This document shows positions 37,647 to 52,108 of a stretch of 52,123 nucleotides of DNA, one piece after another. This DNA is from a virus. The DNA is taken from the IMG/VR virus record IMGVR_UViG_3300042673_000631, positions 1 to 52,123 of that record. One strand, written 5' to 3'. The number at the start of each line of letters is the position of its first letter. The stretch's first letter is position 1. Both the position numbers and the translations under genes were made by a program. A model generated the notes under the pieces. That model was not told the DNA's origin, did no database searches, and saw only the letters and a program-made list of their open reading frames with translations.

Positions 37647-38306
37647 ATGGCAGACATGATGAAAGACTATGTGGAGGTTGCGGAGCGCATCCGTATTTTC
37701 CGTGAGAAGTACCCTGAGGGTTCATTGCAACCAATGAATCTGGAGAAGCCTTACGAGATCGTGACGGTCGGGGAGAAGACTTTCATTGTCTATTTCGCCG
37801 CCGCGTATCGTACTCCCGACGATCAGCGACCCGGCATTGGCAGTGCTTGGGAGCCAGTTCCCGGTGCGACCAGTTTCACCAGACTGTCCGAATTAATGGT
37901 GTGTGAAACTTCGGCTTGGGGACGCGCAATCGTTGCTGTTTTGGCGGCGGATGCGAAGAAGGTCGCCACGATTGACGAGGTTCGGAATCGTTCTGAGGCT
38001 CCTGCTCGTGCAGTTGCACCAAAGCCGACCGCCAAGGTTGTTGCTCCTAAGCCGTCTGGTGATGAACCTCAGACTTGGGTTCCACCTAAGCAGGTGATTG
38101 TTGAACCATCGGAAAAGAATGAGGCAAGCATCCATGCGATTGCTGAGTTGGCAAAACAGGCAGGTATTGCTTCCAAAGAGGAAATGCGGGACTACTGTTC
38201 AATGGTGATTGACCGTGAAATTGCTTCGTCGTTGGATTTGACGGCTGAAGATCGGGTAAAGGTCATTATGGCTCTTCGTGAACTGGCGATGGATCCCAAA
38301 GAGTGA
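37647..38306 (+). CDS. single-strand annealing-like protein
   Basis: A 219-residue protein behind a strong GAGGAGG. The N-terminal ~125 residues carry a pattern seen in many phage proteins from recombination regions (YRTPDDQRPGIGSAWE, then MVCETSAWGRAIVAVL), reminiscent of Erf/Rad52-type annealing proteins. A Pro/Ala-rich linker and a helical C-terminal domain follow. It is directly upstream of the initiator, with a GTGA-type overlap. Function is inferred from pattern and context. Confidence 0.55.
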   Translation: MADMMKDYVEVAERIRIFREKYPEGSLQPMNLEKPYEIVTVGEKTFIVYFAAAYRTPDDQRPGIGSAWEPVPGATSFTRLSELMVCETSAWGRAIVAVLAADAKKVATIDEVRNRSEAPARAVAPKPTAKVVAPKPSGDEPQTWVPPKQVIVEPSEKNEASIHAIAELAKQAGIASKEEMRDYCSMVIDREIASSLDLTAEDRVKVIMALRELAMDPKE

Positions 38307-39046
38307 GTATCAGGGTCATGTCGTCCATTTGGGAACTTGACCTGCCACCATCCGAGAAGTTAGTTCTCTTGGTCATTGCGGATCATGCCGATGATGATGG
38401 TGGTAACGCGTACCCCAGTGTGGCTCGTATTGCTCGTCGGGCTTCTATTTCGGAGCGTCAAACTCAACGGGTGATCCGTCAGTTATGCGAAGACGGGTTT
38501 CTGATTGTGGAGGATCGTTTGGGTGGTGGTGTGGATTGGCGGAGTGATCGTCGCCCGAATCGGTACCAGATTATCGGGGTGACATCAGCGTCATCTCGTG
38601 GTGGTCACGGGGTGACACCTGCGCTCAACGAGGTGACACTGAGGGACTCACGAGGTGACATACAGGGCACTCACGAGGTGACACCCATGTCACCCTATAC
38701 ATCCATAGAAACATCCATAGAACCATCCATAGAAATATCTTGTGCGGAATCGCTTTGTGAACTGTTGGCGGACTCGTGGGCTTCGTTAAGTTCTGGTGTA
38801 AAAAGACCGAAGGTGACAAAGGCTTGGATTGATGAGATGGATCGGATGATGCGACTTGATGGTCGTGATGCTGGTTTGGTTGAGGAGGTTTTGAGGTGGT
38901 TGCCATCTGACAGTTTTTGGTCGGTGAATGTTGGGTCGCCTGTGAAGTTGAGGAAGCATTTTGATCGGTTGATTTTGCAGATGCGAAAGACGGATCGTAG
39001 TAGTCGGTTTTCTGGTATTGAAGAATTTCTTAAGGAGGAATTGTGA
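38303..39046 (+). CDS. replication initiator-like HTH protein
   Basis: A 247-residue protein from GTG 38303. Residues ~10-75 form a winged helix of the HTH_36/replication-initiator type (KLVLLVIADHADDDGGNAYP, RQTQRVIRQLCEDGFLIV). The middle linker (TSIETSIEPSIEIS) is encoded by tandem DNA repeats, and the C-terminal ~100 residues form a second helical domain. Internal iterons inside the gene, as in lambda O, suggest that the protein binds its own gene to open the origin. Confidence 0.75.
   Translation: MSIRVMSSIWELDLPPSEKLVLLVIADHADDDGGNAYPSVARIARRASISERQTQRVIRQLCEDGFLIVEDRLGGGVDWRSDRRPNRYQIIGVTSASSRGGHGVTPALNEVTLRDSRGDIQGTHEVTPMSPYTSIETSIEPSIEISCAESLCELLADSWASLSSGVKRPKVTKAWIDEMDRMMRLDGRDAGLVEEVLRWLPSDSFWSVNVGSPVKLRKHFDRLILQMRKTDRSSRFSGIEEFLKEEL
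38576..38734 (+). repeat. iteron cluster, candidate replication origin
   Basis: Five direct copies of G(A/G)GGTGACA start at 38576, 38609, 38630, 38652 and 38675; the last four are 21-23 bases apart, about two helical turns. An inverted TGTCACC lies at 38688-38694. Right after it, ATCCATAGAA occurs three times at 12-base intervals (38701, 38713, 38725) in A/T-rich sequence. Confidence 0.7.
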
Positions 39047-39507
39047 TTAGGACTGAGACAGCGAGCATTGTGGGTGTGTTGGTGGCTGGTTTTCCGAGTG
39101 TGAAGATGAGTCGGGAGACGGTTGAGGTTTGGCATCGTGCGTTGCATGATTTGCCGTTTGAGGATGTGAAGGTTGCTGTTGAGAAGTTGTTGATGACTTC
39201 GGAGTGGTTTCCGACGATTGCTTTGATTCGGAAAGCGACTTTGGATGCTATGGGGATGTTGCCTATGTCGGCGGATGAGGCGTGGGTTGAGATTCTGTGT
39301 GCTATCAAGGATCATGGTTTGGCTGGTTACCCTGAATTTTCGCCTCTCGTGCGTCAGGCTGTAGTGCAGGTGGGTTGGCGTGATATTTGCATGTCAACTC
39401 AACCTGAGGCGATTAGGAGGTCTTTCGTGAAGGCTTATGATGCGATCGCTTTGAAGCAGACCCATTTGGTTATGACCGCACCACTGGAGTTGACAATGGG
39501 GGGCTAG
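39043..39507 (+). CDS. helicase loader (gp39P-like)
   Basis: A 154-residue protein from GTG 39043 behind AAGGAGG. The N-terminal ~75 residues (ETVEVWHRALHDLPFEDVKV, then EWFPTIALIRKAT) match the layout of SPP1 gp39P-type loaders, which bring the replicative helicase to the origin. Context after the initiator supports it. No phage helicase gene is visible, so the partner may be the host helicase. Confidence 0.65.
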   Translation: MIRTETASIVGVLVAGFPSVKMSRETVEVWHRALHDLPFEDVKVAVEKLLMTSEWFPTIALIRKATLDAMGMLPMSADEAWVEILCAIKDHGLAGYPEFSPLVRQAVVQVGWRDICMSTQPEAIRRSFVKAYDAIALKQTHLVMTAPLELTMGG

Positions 39508-39714: not shown

Positions 39715-39998
39715 AGTCTGCTCAACGAGAGGAGACTTTAGTGGAATTCGGAACTGTGAACATTGGTGTGAAAGCCGAAAATGAAGATGACTTGTTGAGG
39801 CAGTGCGGTTTATTGACTGACCAGATGCGAGATCATCAGTTGGCGATCAGCATGTTGAACGATCAGCGTCGGCGGATTGTTCGGCAATTGCGGTCGTTTC
39901 GTGTGCCGTATCGGAAAATTGCTAATTCGGCTGGAGTGTCGGATCAAGCGTTGTATGCAGATTTGCGTAAGCATCCAGTAGAGGAGACTGCCAAGTGA
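39666..39998 (+). CDS. HTH protein
   Basis: Up to 110 residues from GTG 39666, preceded by GAGAAGGA (GTG 39741 is an alternative). A helical middle is followed by a C-terminal helix-turn-helix resembling sigma-type region 4: RQLRSFRVPYRKIANSAGVS, then DQALYADLRKH. It likely binds DNA; regulator of replication genes or a late-gene activator are both possible. ATGA-type overlap with ssb. Confidence 0.6.
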   Translation: MGNALIEGYESVSDTLKSAQREETLVEFGTVNIGVKAENEDDLLRQCGLLTDQMRDHQLAISMLNDQRRRIVRQLRSFRVPYRKIANSAGVSDQALYADLRKHPVEETAK

Positions 39999-40372
39999 AT
40001 AATTTGACCATTGTAGGGAACATGGTTGCCCAACCTGAAGTGCGATTCACTCCGAGCGGGGTTGCTCAAGCAACTTTTCGTGTGGGTGTCAATCGTCGTT
40101 TCCAGTCCGCTGGTGAGTGGAAATCTGAAGGGACATTCTTTACCTGTGTGGCTTGGGCTGAACTGGCTGAAGCGGTCGCAAATGTGAACAAGGGTGACCG
40201 TGTAATCGTTGTCGGTCGGATGGCTTGCCGTGAGTTTGAGTCCAACGGTGAGAAGCGCAAAGTTTGGGAAATCGCCGTTGAGGATCTTGGGCATAGTTTG
40301 AAGCCTTTGAAGTCGGCTAAGGCTCCAGAACAGGCTCGTGCTGTTGAATCTGAGGCTGAACAGCCGTTCTAA
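39995..40372 (+). CDS. ssb: single-stranded DNA-binding protein
   Basis: A 125-residue OB-fold protein: NNLTIVGNMVAQPEVRFTPSG, FTCVAWAELAEAVANVNKGD and RVIVVGRM are the conserved strands. The acidic tail ends EAEQPF, similar to the bacterial SSB tip that recruits partners. It protects single strands in replication and annealing. Placed after the initiator and loader genes, it completes the replication block. Confidence 0.9.
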   Translation: MNNLTIVGNMVAQPEVRFTPSGVAQATFRVGVNRRFQSAGEWKSEGTFFTCVAWAELAEAVANVNKGDRVIVVGRMACREFESNGEKRKVWEIAVEDLGHSLKPLKSAKAPEQARAVESEAEQPF

Positions 40373-43390: not shown

Positions 43391-43419
43391 TTGATCGGGG
43401 TTTAGTTTTGTGGAAGAAT
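43391..43419 (+). promoter_or_regulatory. repeated phage promoter, copy 6
   Basis: TTGATC 43391-43396, a 17-base spacer starting GGGGTTTAG, then AAGAAT 43414-43419. It leads the amidoligase and amidotransferase genes. Confidence 0.75.
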
Positions 43420-43460
43420 ACTTATGGAGGGAGAGAGGCTCCCACCAGAGAGGGGAAAAG

Positions 43461-44363
43461 ATGACACGGACATTCACCGCTGACTTATCCAAGTCGGCTC
43501 GTCGGGCACACCGTTCCCGCCAACAAGCCAAACTGGATGCCAACCGAACGCTCAGTAAGCGGACATTCGGCATTGAGATTGAGTATGTGGGGACTCCGCT
43601 CAAGCGTCAAGTAGCCGAAGCCCTGAGCCTCGCTCTGGGCGAACATGTCCATGTCACGGGCTACCACTCCACCACCTGCTTCACCTGCGGTCGCCACGAT
43701 GTGGGTTACGGTCAGTGGAAAGTCTGCCATGACGGTTCGCTTGGCGGTCGGGGTTCGGGTGCCGATTCCACCACTGGTGAGATTGTCTCCCCTGTCCTGA
43801 TCGGCGAAGAGGGCATTGACAAAGTGAAGATCGTGCTGGCAACACTCCGAGCGGTTGGTGCGAAAGCCTCCGCCAAGTGCGGGATTCACATCCACGCTGG
43901 TGCCAAAGACCTGACAGCCAACGGTCTACAGCGACTGGTCAAGAACTACGGTCAAGTGCAAGACGAGATTTACTCTTGGTTGCCGAGTCGCCGAGCCACT
44001 GGCACCTACTCGCCGAAACTGCGGACTCGGAGCCTTGACAGCCTCTACGCTGGTGTCAAGCACTACAAAGAGCAGGGCTACGATGGCGGTCTTGGCTCCA
44101 AGTACGCTGGCTTGAACATCAGCCCGCTCGCCCGAATCGGAACCGTGGAATTCCGAATGCACCAAGGTTCGGTGGACACCAACATCCTCGCTCCTTGGAT
44201 CCGATTCGTCATCGGCTTCGTGGATAGCCAAGTGGATGATGAGAACTTGGTAGGCACCACGATCCCCACCAACGAATCGGTCTTGACCTACTTGGTGGAT
44301 GGCAAGTACCTCCCCGCCAAGAGTGCCGAAAAAATCGCCCAGCGTGTCGGTCGCTGGAACTAA
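43461..44363 (+). CDS. amidoligase (COOH-NH2 ligase, glutamine-synthetase-like fold)
   Basis: A 300-residue protein from ATG 43461 behind GAGGGG. The family marks are FGIEIEYVGT (36-45), WKVCHDGSLGG, TGEIVSPVL, CGIHIHAGAK and GTVEFRMHQGS, the ATP/metal-binding residues of the amidoligase_2 family. These enzymes form amide bonds between carboxyl and amino groups. In phages they occur with class II amidotransferases and GGCT proteins, both present here, and a wall-peptide or small-molecule modification is suggested. The gene is unusually rich in C-ending codons. Confidence 0.85.
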   Translation: MTRTFTADLSKSARRAHRSRQQAKLDANRTLSKRTFGIEIEYVGTPLKRQVAEALSLALGEHVHVTGYHSTTCFTCGRHDVGYGQWKVCHDGSLGGRGSGADSTTGEIVSPVLIGEEGIDKVKIVLATLRAVGAKASAKCGIHIHAGAKDLTANGLQRLVKNYGQVQDEIYSWLPSRRATGTYSPKLRTRSLDSLYAGVKHYKEQGYDGGLGSKYAGLNISPLARIGTVEFRMHQGSVDTNILAPWIRFVIGFVDSQVDDENLVGTTIPTNESVLTYLVDGKYLPAKSAEKIAQRVGRWN

Positions 44364-44380
44364 CAGGAAGGACACAGAAC

Positions 44381-45142
44381 ATGTGCGGAATCTCAGGATT
44401 CAGTCTCACCAAGTGCGACGCTAAGAAAATTGACAGCAGGATCCTTGCCAGTTGCCTCTTAAAAAACATTGAGCATCGTGGGCGACATGCCACGGGTGCA
44501 TCATGGACAGAGACAATGGATGAGGGTCTGATGTGGTGGTACACCAAGGCTCCGATCCCAGCATCGGAATTTGACGGTCACCTAGAACAGATGCCGAAGC
44601 ACACTCGCCGAGCATTGCTCCATGTACGGTACGCCACCACTGGCGATCCCGAAGATGAGAACAACAACCATCCGATCATCGTGCCCTCGTCATCGGGCGG
44701 ATCGGTCATCGGTGTTCACAACGGCATCATCAACAACTACCAGCAGATCATGGATGACATTGGTGCCGAATGGATTGGTGAGGTTGACTCTCAAGCCCTA
44801 TTCCACCTTGCTGGTACCGAAGACTTCACCAAAGAAATGTTCCGCCAAGTTCAAGGTTCAGCATCGGTTGCCTATGTTGACACTGCCGAACCGACCACGA
44901 TCAAACTGGTTCGCATGTCAATGCGACCCTTATGGATCGCCCAGACCGAAGACGGCTCAACACTTTGGTCATCAGAGAAAGATGCACTGCTGGATGCCAT
45001 GAGTGTGGTAGGACTTACAGCAGATTTTGTTATGGAGGTTCCCGAATGGACAATGGTTACTATCAACGATGCTCGTCTAGATTCCGTAGAGCAGATTGTT
45101 CGCCCTACAGCATTGAGTGGTCAGATGGTCATGTTTCGGTAG
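44381..45142 (+). CDS. class II glutamine amidotransferase
   Basis: A 253-residue protein beginning MCGISGF, so Cys2 becomes the N-terminal nucleophile of an Ntn hydrolase. HRGRHATGASW, RYATTGDPEDENNNHPI and VHNGIINNYQQIMDDIGAEW are the conserved glutamine-binding segments. It frees ammonia from glutamine, likely feeding the amidoligase encoded just upstream. There is no sugar-isomerase domain, so it is not a full GlmS. CAGGAAGG precedes the ATG. Confidence 0.9.
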   Translation: MCGISGFSLTKCDAKKIDSRILASCLLKNIEHRGRHATGASWTETMDEGLMWWYTKAPIPASEFDGHLEQMPKHTRRALLHVRYATTGDPEDENNNHPIIVPSSSGGSVIGVHNGIINNYQQIMDDIGAEWIGEVDSQALFHLAGTEDFTKEMFRQVQGSASVAYVDTAEPTTIKLVRMSMRPLWIAQTEDGSTLWSSEKDALLDAMSVVGLTADFVMEVPEWTMVTINDARLDSVEQIVRPTALSGQMVMFR

Positions 45143-45336
45143 GGCACACTCCCCGACGATTGCTTAAAGGGCTTGGGGACATTCAGTTCCCGCCCATGTC
45201 GGTCAAAGAGATCAAGATTGAATTGGCAAGACGATGTGAAGCCTTGCTGAGTATTGACTGCCCAATATCGGAAGATGATCTTGAGTTTCTTGAATACTTG
45301 GCGAAGGTTGGGTTCATAGATTTCTATGTTGGATGA
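45046..45336 (+). CDS. overlapping hypothetical protein
   Basis: Up to 96 residues from ATG 45046, overlapping the amidotransferase gene by 97 bases in another frame; ATG 45193-45195 region gives a 46-residue alternative. The segment SIEWSDGHVSVGHTPRRLL looks like a real domain start, faintly like DUF971-type W-S-D-G-H patterns. The end (EIKIELARRCEALLSIDCP) is helical. The start is unresolved. It is followed, with a short overlap, by the WhiB gene. Confidence 0.5.
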   Translation: MDNGYYQRCSSRFRRADCSPYSIEWSDGHVSVGHTPRRLLKGLGDIQFPPMSVKEIKIELARRCEALLSIDCPISEDDLEFLEYLAKVGFIDFYVG

Positions 45337-45787
45337 CTTTTGGGACTTAGCCGTTTGCAAAACGGAACAAGTCCCAACAGGAATCTTTTTTGGATCTGAA
45401 GACGAAAGCCCACAAGAGCGGACGATCAGAATCGCAATGGCTAAATCTATTTGCCAACGATGCGATGTGGCTGATGAGTGTTTGCAGATGGCGATCGCAA
45501 ATGATGAGCGTGGAATCTGGGGAGGAAAGACGGAAAACGAGCGGTATCGGGGTTCTACCGTCCTAATTTCGGATCCGCTGGTACCTGTAGTGCCCTCAGA
45601 GCCTGTCGCCAGATCAATTTGGGTGACCATAGCCGACTCTAATGGGGTAGTGCTACAGATGACTAGGAGGTTCACTCCAATGACATGGCAAATCGTCGTA
45701 GACGGCATTGTTCGCTACGAAAAGTATGTAGAAGGCGAAGCGTGGATCGTTTGGAACAGGGCAGTTGAAAGCAGGATGCGATACTGA
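45326..45787 (+). CDS. WhiB-family regulator with C-terminal extension
   Basis: A 153-residue protein. Residues 1-70 are a WhiB domain with C11, C43, C46 and C52 placed to hold a [4Fe-4S] cluster, and GIWGG at 63-67, the DNA-interaction turn. Residues ~75-153 are an added domain (RSIWVTIADSNGVVLQMTRR) not typical of WhiB proteins. Phage WhiB proteins can alter host WhiB control. WhiB proteins are confined to actinobacteria and their phages, giving the host clue. Confidence 0.85.
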   Translation: MLDDFWDLAVCKTEQVPTGIFFGSEDESPQERTIRIAMAKSICQRCDVADECLQMAIANDERGIWGGKTENERYRGSTVLISDPLVPVVPSEPVARSIWVTIADSNGVVLQMTRRFTPMTWQIVVDGIVRYEKYVEGEAWIVWNRAVESRMRY

Positions 45788-45866
45788 TTAGAATCAGACG
45801 AGGTTATTGCCGATCCCCCTCACGGCGATGACTTAGGAACTGTGAGTGCCTCCTACTCAAGTTTCC

Positions 45867-45897
45867 AAACGGGCAGTGTCTTTGGCACTGCCCGTTT
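45867..45897 (+). terminator. strong 12-bp hairpin terminator
   Basis: AAACGGGCAGTG (45867-45878) and CACTGCCCGTTT (45886-45897) pair perfectly around a 7-base loop. It lies 79 bases after the WhiB gene. It separates the early-type operons from the ParB operon. Confidence 0.85.
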
Positions 45898-45899
45898 GC

Positions 45900-45912
45900 T
45901 ATTGTGCCACCA
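45900..45912 (+). promoter_or_regulatory. -10 element of a probably leaderless start
   Basis: TATTGT (45900-45905), six bases (GCCACC), then ATG 45912. As at 2383, it comes directly after a terminator, in the shared string TTTGCTAT, and there is no ribosome site. Confidence 0.55.
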
Positions 45913-46568
45913 TGCAAATAGATGAGGTGGCTATCAATGCGATTACCCGACACCCTAAAAACGCCCGTCAGGGTGAAGTGTCTCGGATCGTGGAATCAAT
46001 TAAAGCGAACGGGTTCTTTGCCCCGTTGGTAGTTCAACGGTCAACAGGGTTCATTCTGGTGGGCAACCATCGGTATCAAGCCGCATGCGATACTGGGATG
46101 ACCACGATTCCCGTTCACTATGTGGACTGTGACGATGCTCAGGCTCGGCGGATCATGCTGGCGGACAACAAAACCAGTGATCGTGCCAGATATGAAAAAG
46201 ACATTCTTGCTGAACTGCTCCAAGAAGCCCTCGGTGACGGCGGACTATTCGGTACAGCGTTTGATCCGTCTGAAGTAGACAAACTGCTACAGGAAGCGTC
46301 CGCTGGTGACGCTCCCACGGTTGAACAGTTTGATCTCATCCCGTATGAGCGCACCTTTTTCTTGGTCGCCGCACCATTAAGCCTGCATGCGACCATTGCC
46401 GATGCATTGGATCGTCTACAAATTGAACACGAGGAAATTGATTATGAGCATGCCCAAGATTCGTCGGAAGACTCGCCCGTTCTTCAGAGCGAGGAAGGAC
46501 AAGAACGAGAACTCGCATCTGGACGAGAAGGCTTGGTTGAGAGCGGAGACAATTCGCTTGATTGGTAA
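45912..46568 (+). CDS. ParB-like nuclease-domain protein
   Basis: A 218-residue protein from ATG 45912 (an in-frame start at 45846 lies upstream of the terminator). Residues ~1-90 are a ParB/Srx-type fold: AITRHPKNARQGEVSRIVES, then LVVQRSTGFILVGNHRYQAA with the GNHR motif. The C-terminal ~40 residues are out-of-frame with the next gene and look low-complexity (SEDSPVLQSEEGQERELASG). Such domains occur with DNA methylases, present downstream. Confidence 0.8.
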   Translation: MQIDEVAINAITRHPKNARQGEVSRIVESIKANGFFAPLVVQRSTGFILVGNHRYQAACDTGMTTIPVHYVDCDDAQARRIMLADNKTSDRARYEKDILAELLQEALGDGGLFGTAFDPSEVDKLLQEASAGDAPTVEQFDLIPYERTFFLVAAPLSLHATIADALDRLQIEHEEIDYEHAQDSSEDSPVLQSEEGQERELASGREGLVESGDNSLDW

Positions 46569-50194: not shown

Positions 50195-50400
50195 TGCATT
50201 TTTATGATGTGGACGATGTGAATGGTGATCTGGTTGATCTGATCCCGTTTTGTTCTGATTGGTGTCACCGCAGTTGGTGTATTTCTGGCGGTGGTGTTTA
50301 TGGTGGGTGGAATGGTGCCCACGAGGTTGATTATTCAACGGTGTGTGCGTGGTGTCAAGAAAAAATTGTTGGTTTCGGAGATCTTGAGGAGGATCAGTGA
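50194..50400 (+). CDS. small Cys-rich protein
   Basis: A 68-residue protein starting at ATG in a TGATG junction. FCSDWCHRSWC and VCAWCQEKIVGF carry five cysteines and a histidine, similar to small zinc-ribbon proteins in this region. GTGA overlap with the WhiB-like gene. Confidence 0.55.
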   Translation: MHFYDVDDVNGDLVDLIPFCSDWCHRSWCISGGGVYGGWNGAHEVDYSTVCAWCQEKIVGFGDLEEDQ

Positions 50401-50876
50401 GCGATAGTGATGTTGAGATCGTTGAGGAGTTAATTGGGTTGGTTAATGTTGATCGGTCGTGGATGGAGCATGCGGCGTGTCGGGGTATCCACCCAAATTT
50501 GTTTCATTCAGAGTTTGGTGATTATCAAACGCAGAAGCAGGCTCTTGTTGTTTGTAACGGTGTGACAGCGACCCGAAAAACTTGTGGTGTGAATCCTTGC
50601 CCAGTTCGGGAGCAATGTTTGGAGTATGCGATGTCTTTACCTCCCCGTACTGATACTCATGGGGTGTATGGAGGCAAGACGCATAAACAGCGTGTTAGTT
50701 TGCGGAGTGTTCGTGGGGTAACGAAGGGTAAGCCTCGTTCACCTTGTGGTACTCAGGCGGGTTATCGGTCGCATTTGCGGTTTAACGAAAAAACTTGTGA
50801 TGAATGTCGGAAAGCCAATGCTCTTCACAAAATGTTGTTATTAGAATCCAAGAATGCCCGAATTCTTTCAACCTAA
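50397..50876 (+). CDS. second WhiB-like protein, atypical, with C-terminal zinc motif
   Basis: A 159-residue protein from GTG 50397. DRSWMEHAACRG (C28), KTCGVNPCPVREQC (C63, C68, C74) and GVYGGKT fit a WhiB domain, but the middle pair is C-x4-C instead of the usual C-x2-C, and C53 is extra. Residues ~115-140 add CGTQAGYRSHLRFNEKTCDEC, a separate metal-binding motif also seen in actinobacterial phage proteins. It may be a modified regulator. Confidence 0.7.
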   Translation: MSDSDVEIVEELIGLVNVDRSWMEHAACRGIHPNLFHSEFGDYQTQKQALVVCNGVTATRKTCGVNPCPVREQCLEYAMSLPPRTDTHGVYGGKTHKQRVSLRSVRGVTKGKPRSPCGTQAGYRSHLRFNEKTCDECRKANALHKMLLLESKNARILST

Positions 50877-51096: not shown

Positions 51097-51199
51097 AGAA
51101 ACCCGTTTTGGGTCACGCCGACAGTGTGCATGTCGTTCAGGGTTTGTATCCGTTGGAGGGTATGAGTCGCAAAACACGGTTGCGTGGGTAGATCCCCTT

Positions 51200-51330
51200 A
51201 TGCGAACCGATTCTAGGTGAAGTGTGTAATTGGGGAGCCACGAATCCGTGAGGACGAATTAGAAGGTTAGGACATGAGCCGTGTCGTTAAAGATTAGGTC
51301 GGGGCTTCCGTAGGGCAACGGAAGGGGTGG
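51200..51330 (+). ncRNA. candidate structured noncoding RNA
   Basis: The gap 51097-51599 holds no convincing gene. This part has several possible stems: TTCTAG (51211-51216) with TTAGAA (51259-51264, one G-T pair), TCC-GTGA-GGA at 51245-51254, and CTTCCGT/ACGGAAG (51305-51311/51318-51324). The stretch TCCGTGAGGACGAA matches the stem II side of hammerhead ribozymes, but the CUGANGA core is not present. It could be a phage RNA or a packaging-linked structure. Confidence 0.35.
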
Positions 51331-51370
51331 TGACAAATGCAAGTCTGAGAAAACACCCGTTTCAGGATGA

Positions 51371-51431
51371 CCCTATATAGCACCCCCTGCTACAGCGGGC
51401 ACCACACGGGCACACAGAGGGCTATATGGGG
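51371..51431 (+). repeat. long inverted repeat near the small terminase gene
   Basis: CCCTATATAGC (51371-51381) pairs with GCTATATGGGG (51421-51431) at ten of eleven positions plus one wobble pair. A smaller hairpin, CCCTGC-TACA-GCGGG, lies between the arms. It could be a packaging or replication structure. Confidence 0.6.
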
Positions 51432-51479
51432 CACCACAGCGTACCCAGATAGGTCACTCTTTCCCCCTGTGGCACATCC

Positions 51480-51600
51480 TCGTATTTAGAAACAACACAC
51501 CCGCACACCTAGAAACACCCCTACATACACCCCCCACATACACCCCCCTATACAGCACGCTGACACACACACCACACCACACACAACTACCATACCCACA
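51480..51600 (+). repeat. A/C-rich segment with short tandem repeats
   Basis: Nearly all bases are A or C on this strand. CATACACCCCCC occurs twice in tandem (51524-51535 and 51537-51548), and TAGAAACA recurs. It ends at the small terminase start; no ribosome site is visible. A terminase-binding (pac/cos-type) role is a reasonable guess. Confidence 0.55.
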
Positions 51601-52079
51601 TGGGCAGAAACAGCAAACTCACACCAGAAACACACACCAAAATCATCGGAGCCATCAAAGCAGGCAACTACCTAGAAACAGCCGCCGCATACGCAGGCAT
51701 AGACCAAGGCACCCTACACAGATGGCTAAACCGTGGTCAAGACGAAACAGAAACAGACCCACGATACAGCGAGTTCCGCGAGGCAGTACAAAACGCAAGA
51801 GCCGAAGCCGAAGCACGAAATGTCGCCCTCATCCAAAGAGCCGCCAACGAAGGCACATGGCAAGCCGCCGCATGGTACCTAGAACGAACAGCCTCAAACA
51901 GATGGGGACGCAGAGCCGCCCTAGAGGTCACTGGCGAGGGTGGGGGAGCCGTACAGATCGCAGTTGACACCGATGCACTGGAGGCGAAGGTTCGGGCGAT
52001 CCTCGGAGGGAGCGTCAAAGAGGTCGGCGCAAGTGTCAAGGAATTAGCCCAACCTGTGGATAAACCCCTGCATAGTTGA
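51600..52079 (+). CDS. terS: small terminase subunit
   Basis: A 159-residue protein. Residues ~5-50 form a helix-turn-helix (KIIGAIKAGNYLETAAAYAG, IDQGTLHRWLNRG) typical of small terminases, followed by a helix-rich oligomerisation part (AVQNARAEAEARNVALIQRA, WYLERTASNRWG). It recognises the packaging site and loads the large subunit. The gene is A/C-rich (AGA, CTA and ACA codons), unlike the T/G-rich head genes. The large subunit should follow beyond the right edge. Confidence 0.75.
   Translation: MGRNSKLTPETHTKIIGAIKAGNYLETAAAYAGIDQGTLHRWLNRGQDETETDPRYSEFREAVQNARAEAEARNVALIQRAANEGTWQAAAWYLERTASNRWGRRAALEVTGEGGGAVQIAVDTDALEAKVRAILGGSVKEVGASVKELAQPVDKPLHS
52055..52063 (-). promoter_or_regulatory. 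DnaA box-like site 1
   Basis: TGTGGATAA on the + strand is TTATCCACA on the - strand, a perfect match to the bacterial DnaA box. It lies in the last codons of the small terminase gene, 45 bases from a second copy. Confidence 0.55.
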
Positions 52080-52099: not shown

Positions 52100-52108
52100 T
52101 GTGGATAA
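52100..52108 (-). promoter_or_regulatory. DnaA box-like site 2
   Basis: A second TGTGGATAA, in the larger repeat CCTGTGGATAAA (52053-52064 and 52098-52109). Between the two sites, TGCAT-AAAC-ATGCA (52080-52093) forms a small hairpin. Confidence 0.55.

Follow-up and report, generated by a model that had tools for sequence, protein, structure and literature searches.

Clustered iterons and a directional repeat array within a phage initiator gene as a probable replication origin

Introduction

Why would the middle of a phage replication gene be packed with short DNA repeats? The question is posed by a stretch of 52,123 nucleotides from the viral record IMGVR_UViG_3300042673_000631 (IMG/VR, positions 1 to 52,123, one strand), referred to below as the window, in which a gene resembling phage replication initiators carries two adjacent repeat arrays in the part encoding its linker. 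A preliminary description had read these repeats as a candidate origin recalling lambda ori, where iterons inside gene O lie next to an A/T-rich unwinding region (PMC5043065, PMC7466680). Our analysis of the window and of homologous genes leads us to regard positions 38576-38740, in the section of the initiator gene that encodes the linker, as most probably the replication origin of the phage.

Results and Discussion

The window contains exactly five copies of the iteron GRGGTGACA, all of them at 38576-38683 within the initiator gene, while chance would yield a mean of 1.07 and at most 4 copies in the whole window; no second cluster was found elsewhere in the 52 kb. The start-to-start spacings of 33, 21, 22 and 23 bp agree with the five repeats described earlier, the last four of them 21-23 bases apart, and the reported inverted copy is likewise present, forming the dyad GAGGTGACACCCATGTCACCC together with iteron 5. 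Directly after this dyad follow the three tandem repeats of the preliminary description, ATCCATAGAA, of which the window holds exactly three copies at 38701, 38713 and 38725, i.e. with a period of 12 bp. This second array has an A/T fraction of 0.67 and only 3 G in 43 bases of the coding strand, so that the earlier statement that the repeats lie in A/T-rich DNA is true of the second array, but not of the iteron block, whose A/T fraction is 0.40 compared to a window mean of 0.52. According to repeat searches across the whole window, the initiator linker is the sole place where two dense arrays of short repeats stand side by side. A single-strand hairpin (z -2.96) was dismissed as a separate feature, since it is due to the inverted iterons and not to the array.

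The repeats could in principle follow from the encoded peptide, which was assessed by 20,000 synonymous recodings that left the protein unchanged and sampled codons according to the codon usage of this phage. Neither five iterons (maximum 3) nor three ATCCATAGAA (maximum 1) were reached in any of them, and the repeats employ codons that are unusual in this phage, ATA making up 11.5 % of Ile and TCC 7.1 % of Ser codons. Within the window, iteron 4 is read in a frame (RGD) that differs from that of the other iterons (GVT/EVT). Among the matches listed from an iteron-based scan, the plus-strand iterons of 88 deduplicated genes fall into frame 0 (Gly-Asp) 180 times and into frame 2 (Val-Thr) 180 times, with spacings peaking at 21, 22 and 23, and never into frame 1, where a TGA stop would stand in frame. 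The equal use of both open frames argues for selection on the DNA. Comparison of repeat conservation with codons in relatives, a check proposed in the preliminary description, gave the same picture: initiators of 25-60 % protein identity retain iterons although the surrounding codons change. In L006 (60 % protein identity) the iterons occupy almost unchanged positions but code for other residues, the third one being shifted in frame from EVT in the window to RGD, and L038, a gene of 72 % GC, retains codons that end in A, among them ATA and TCA. Both the recoding null and the use of several reading frames back the proposal that the DNA repeats dictate the linker peptide.

The iteron-based scan itself was blind to protein, searching 2.9 million viral contigs for three spaced copies of GGGTGACA, and returned at least 120 loci. 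Among the matches listed, the pattern was surrounded by a homologous helix-turn-helix (HTH) open reading frame (ORF) in 91 of 120; several of the remaining ones were truncated initiators and most others collagen-like or other repeat proteins, with the collagen-like GDTGDT proteins being recognised and set aside. The closest relatives share the same order of elements: the iterons come first, GGGGTGACACCCATGTCACCC follows and CCATCCATAGAACCATCCATA stands last, the latter two exactly or as a near copy. The TGTCACCC core at the inverted iteron is identical in 6 of 7 aligned relatives. Iteron 1 may be dispensable, as it differs by one base in relatives whose initiators are 96 % identical to that of the window: it reads GGGGTGTCA in L007 and encodes Val-Ser in both L005 and L007. 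As a side observation, the iterons of homologous initiators vary widely (CGGGGGCT, CCCCTCCC, GGGTGCA, CCCGGAAC and more, seen in L144, L157, L164, L174, L236, L242 and others). Many of them have a GGTG core in common, and the iterons may track the HTH domain, but as this was a look by eye with kinship uncontrolled, we make no claim of it.

To judge from motif comparison, the ATCCATAGAA repeats of the window form part of a more widespread element, GAACCRTCA, which recurs with a period of 10-12 bp. The window carries it as three copies of the variant GAAMCATCCATA on the gene strand after the dyad, bridged to GAACCATCC by the relatives L007, L151 and L152. A scan of viral contigs for the exact 12-bp tandem yielded 14 loci, of which 11 lie in HTH ORFs and 2 more in truncated initiators; the iterons differ between these loci, and the block after them is GAACCATCAATAGAACC or a close variant. 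As a set free of motif selection, 88 initiator genes (84 for tandem arrays) were chosen by protein homology only. AACCATCA is the top enriched 8-mer there, being present in 38 of the 88 genes compared to 8.2 in synonymous shuffles, and GAACCRTC occurs in 45 of 88 compared to 12.4 (maximum 20), its reverse orientation in 2. Tandem arrays were found in 46 of 84 genes, with 5.1 expected from the shuffles (maximum 10 in 200) and none in reverse. In a larger deduplicated set of 270 genes, which includes pattern-selected loci, copies are most often 11, 12 or 10 bp apart, and the three frames hold 252, 75 and 59 copies of GAACCRTC. Throughout, duplicates were removed only if exact or near-exact, and some of the counts share ancestry. 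The 60 bp upstream of the array tend to contain an inverted repeat (mean arm 6.8, shuffled 4.7).

A third blind scan, this time for three copies resembling GAACCRTCA, added 118 new loci among the matches listed, 88 of them in HTH ORFs, all on the gene strand and in frames 60/14/14. The other 30 comprise 15 simple repeats, 12 truncated or unrecognised initiators, so assigned from the look of their linker sequence, and 3 unrelated loci; simple repeats of the (ACCGGA)n type were identified and set aside. Of 7 prophage-bearing genomes (3-6 Mb), 5 contain the doubled motif, and they do so solely at the initiator gene. A two-copy scan of 595 genomes of two phyla produced matches in 10 genomes, in 5 of them in HTH initiators, which makes two exact copies a weaker predictor than three. 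Cultured phages carry the array as well, namely TC7 (Pseudomonas), Eesa (Arthrobacter) and PHB09 (Bordetella); the GAACC repeats of Eesa run through frames 1, 0, 2, 0 and those of L183 through frames 2, 1, 0. PMBT6 combines GGTGACA iterons with one AACCATCA. The array persists where iteron sequences differ, in all three frames and almost always oriented with the gene, and at the level of sequence the comparisons establish a two-part layout that is common among many distant phages and under selection on DNA across frames. Separately, the initiators of Acinetobacter phage AB1 (L375, ~1870-1910) and Vibrio phage K67 (L376, ~1820-1860) have no GAACCRTCA and show other tandem repeats in its place (CAAAGAAACAAC and CCTAACAACTAT), as if further array types existed.

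By its N-terminal winged helix and DnaD-like C-terminal domain, the predicted product of the repeat-bearing gene is an O-like/HTH_36 phage initiator. Pfam assigns HTH_36 (PF13730) to the N-terminus with 59.2 bits (cut-off 25, E 3.4e-16) and DnaD_N with E 3.9e-06; the best phage family is phrog_391, 'replication initiation O-like' (6.4e-31), and residues 143-234 match the DnaD-like helicase loader phrog_2514 (E 2.9e-16). AlphaFold2 models the winged helix confidently at residues ~1-70 (predicted local distance difference test, pLDDT, 81-91 for this block), while the C-terminus is helical, poorly modelled and of low confidence. Residues 95-147 have a pLDDT below 50, and this very low model confidence reads as disorder. 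As positions 38585-38743 encode these residues, the repeat block falls into the disordered linker, in line with the linker-coding location given in the preliminary description. The nearest solved folds to the N-terminal model are initiator and MarR-type winged helices with weak E-values (best 2.9e-03), led by the winged helices 4pql and 4pt7 ('initiator'); the matches also include the Rep-DNA complex 5kbj. These we take to be RepA_N-type initiators with origins inside the rep gene, as in staphylococcal plasmids; the likeness is weak and structural only, with no match to Pfam RepA_N at E 0.01. The features of the locus, including the neighbouring replication genes, are compiled in Table 1.

Table 1. 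Features of the initiator gene and the adjacent replication genes, in window coordinates.
Feature	Position	Strand	Remarks
O-like replication initiator gene	38303..39046	+	GTG start, 247 residues; Pfam, PHROG, AlphaFold2
Predicted parts of the initiator			HTH_36 winged helix, residues ~1-92; disordered linker, ~95-147; DnaD-like helical C-terminus
Iteron 1	38576..38584	+	GGGGTGACA
Iteron 2	38609..38617	+	GGGGTGACA
Iteron 3	38630..38638	+	GAGGTGACA; encodes EVT
Iteron 4	38652..38660	+	GAGGTGACA; encodes RGD, other reading frame
Iteron 5	38675..38683	+	GAGGTGACA; left half of terminal dyad
Inverted iteron	38688..38696	-	AGGGTGACA on minus strand; one mismatch; right half of terminal dyad
Directional 12-bp array	38698..38740	+	three ATCCATAGAA (i.e. 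GAAMCATCCATA), GAACCRTCA family; proposed DNA unwinding element
Isolated near-iteron	38810..38818	+	AAGGTGACA; weaker copy, C-terminal coding part
G39P-like helicase loader gene	39043..39507	+	Inhibitor_G39P, E 1.5e-05 (Pfam); phrog_2289 helicase loader, 8.7e-09
Single-strand binding protein gene	39995..40372	+	same cluster; Pfam SSB, 1.5e-24

The start of the loader gene overlaps the initiator stop. On the evidence of comparison, the locus comprises an initiator gene, an iteron array with a dyad, a directional array, DNA conservation independent of frame, and an adjacent loader-like gene. Its clustered iterons, A/T-rich candidate unwinding element and neighbouring loader gene would place it with origins located in initiator genes, such as lambda ori and SPP1 oriL. 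The likeness to lambda concerns layout, with iterons spaced by ~20-24 bp in the central part of the initiator gene, an A/T-rich unwinding region downstream and the loader gene next; in sequence it fails, as neither GGTGACA nor an AACCRTCA array occurs in the ori of lambda O. No lambda-type iteron or array sequence is common to the window and lambda O or SEN34 O, both O genes are without a GAACCRTCA array, and the loader of the window is G39P-like instead of P. SPP1, which has direct repeats and an AT-rich DNA unwinding element (DUE) inside the origin-binding-protein gene 38 and a G39P-type loader (PMC6316719), appears at least as close as lambda with its gene 38 and gene 39 loader. This likeness is one of published layout, and SPP1 differs in having a second origin, oriR, where the window has no second iteron cluster. 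Tandem 13-mers beside iterons are also found in plasmid RK2, whose initiator TrfA binds them (PMC4081077), although that origin lies outside the linker of its initiator, which is a different one.

These parallels suggest a possible course of initiation. The winged-helix HTH_36 domain would bind GRGGTGACA, and copies 21-23 bp apart, about two helical turns, would be occupied on one face of the DNA and bend it. By analogy with lambda (PMC5043065) and SPP1 (PMC6316719), the iteron-bound initiator may then open the neighbouring GAACCRTCA-type array. Lambda O also binds single-stranded DNA (ssDNA), and its AT-rich tract is unneeded for O-some formation but crucial for unwinding (PMC7466680), while the Rep proteins of plasmids bind a single strand of the DUE repeats, with a strand specificity that requires the repeat sequence (PMC4081077). 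One strand of the array might be held as plasmid Rep holds DUE 13-mers, perhaps sequence-specifically, and the constant orientation of the array would then set the place of helicase entry; the DnaD-like C-terminal domain and the G39P-like neighbour would deliver the replicative helicase. By these analogies, an array of constant direction and sequence fits a strand-holding model better than a mere A/T-rich tract would. Since origin site and initiator reside in one gene, they would be inherited together.

Several observations weigh against this assignment. There is no GC-skew switch at the initiator gene, the skew being positive throughout the window, nor a DnaA box in or near the gene, and a DnaB-type helicase was not identified among the proteins tested, which covered part of the window. 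Neither repeat type is universal, since a recognisable GAACCRTCA array is missing from about half of the homologs, and significant 8-mer iterons are likewise missing from half. Furthermore, 65 % of the GAACCRTC copies are in frame 0 (EPS), which makes some protein-level selection or frame inertia on the array likely. A DnaA-dependent origin was rejected, as none of the four TTATCCACA in the window are in or near the gene.

The dominance of EPS..EPS peptides, together with linker disorder, is what one would expect if the repeats were a peptide feature, a low-complexity linker grown by tandem duplication whose EPS-rich motifs contact helicase or loader. This we consider very improbable, given that the iterons use both open frames equally, that GAACC repeats run through all three frames in Eesa and L183, and that the codon choice lies beyond 20,000 recodings and retains ATA and TCA in L038. 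The initiator might instead bind inside its own gene as an operator, blocking or pacing transcription while replication starts elsewhere; the HTH_36 fold does resemble MarR-type repressors, and such binding could occur besides an origin function. An operator would leave unexplained, however, why a directional GAACCRTCA array with 10-12 bp phasing stands by the last dyad and persists while iterons change, and promoter or terminator signals near the repeats are at about chance level, so that we judge this unlikely, though less so than the peptide explanation. Least credible to us is a recombination site for swapping HTH and C-terminal modules. HTH domains, C-terminal domains and downstream genes indeed vary between homologs, but a shared exchange site should be constant whereas the iteron sequence varies between relatives, and fixed spacing with an inverted terminal dyad is typical of initiator binding.

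Some further observations concern other parts of the window. The TTATCCACA DnaA boxes are more frequent than expected (four, 0.53 expected), and two perfect ones on the minus strand (52055-52063 and 52100-52108, 45 bp apart) are located where the gene for the terminase small subunit ends and beyond it. This gene is preceded by ~500 bp without an obvious gene (51100-51600), A/C-rich and with short repeats (GCTACAGCGGGCACCACA x2; CACCCCTACATA x3.5), perhaps a packaging site. Further downstream than the replication genes, genes for an amidoligase and a glutamine amidotransferase lie side by side (43410-45142). Two WhiB-like regulators and a ParB-like protein (45326-46568 and 50397-50876) suggest an actinobacterial host.

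Conclusion

Iterons inside an initiator gene are known, and the shared directional GAACCRTCA element is apparently undescribed: a literature search of partial coverage found no description of it with an origin or phage. We put forward as a tentative possibility, somewhat short of an even chance, that phages of Proteobacteria and Actinobacteria with different iterons share GAACCRTCA, repeated every 10-12 bp in any frame, as one directional origin element, which a conserved part of the initiation machinery would recognise, probably as ssDNA, and which would set the polarity of helicase loading in a large group of phages. Replicon-specific recognition by the iterons would then be separated from a general opening or loading step at the array. 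While iterons in the initiator gene had been known from a few model phages, the layout is found here to be common, and a short DNA pattern would allow origins, and perhaps the direction of replication, to be predicted in many uncultured phages.
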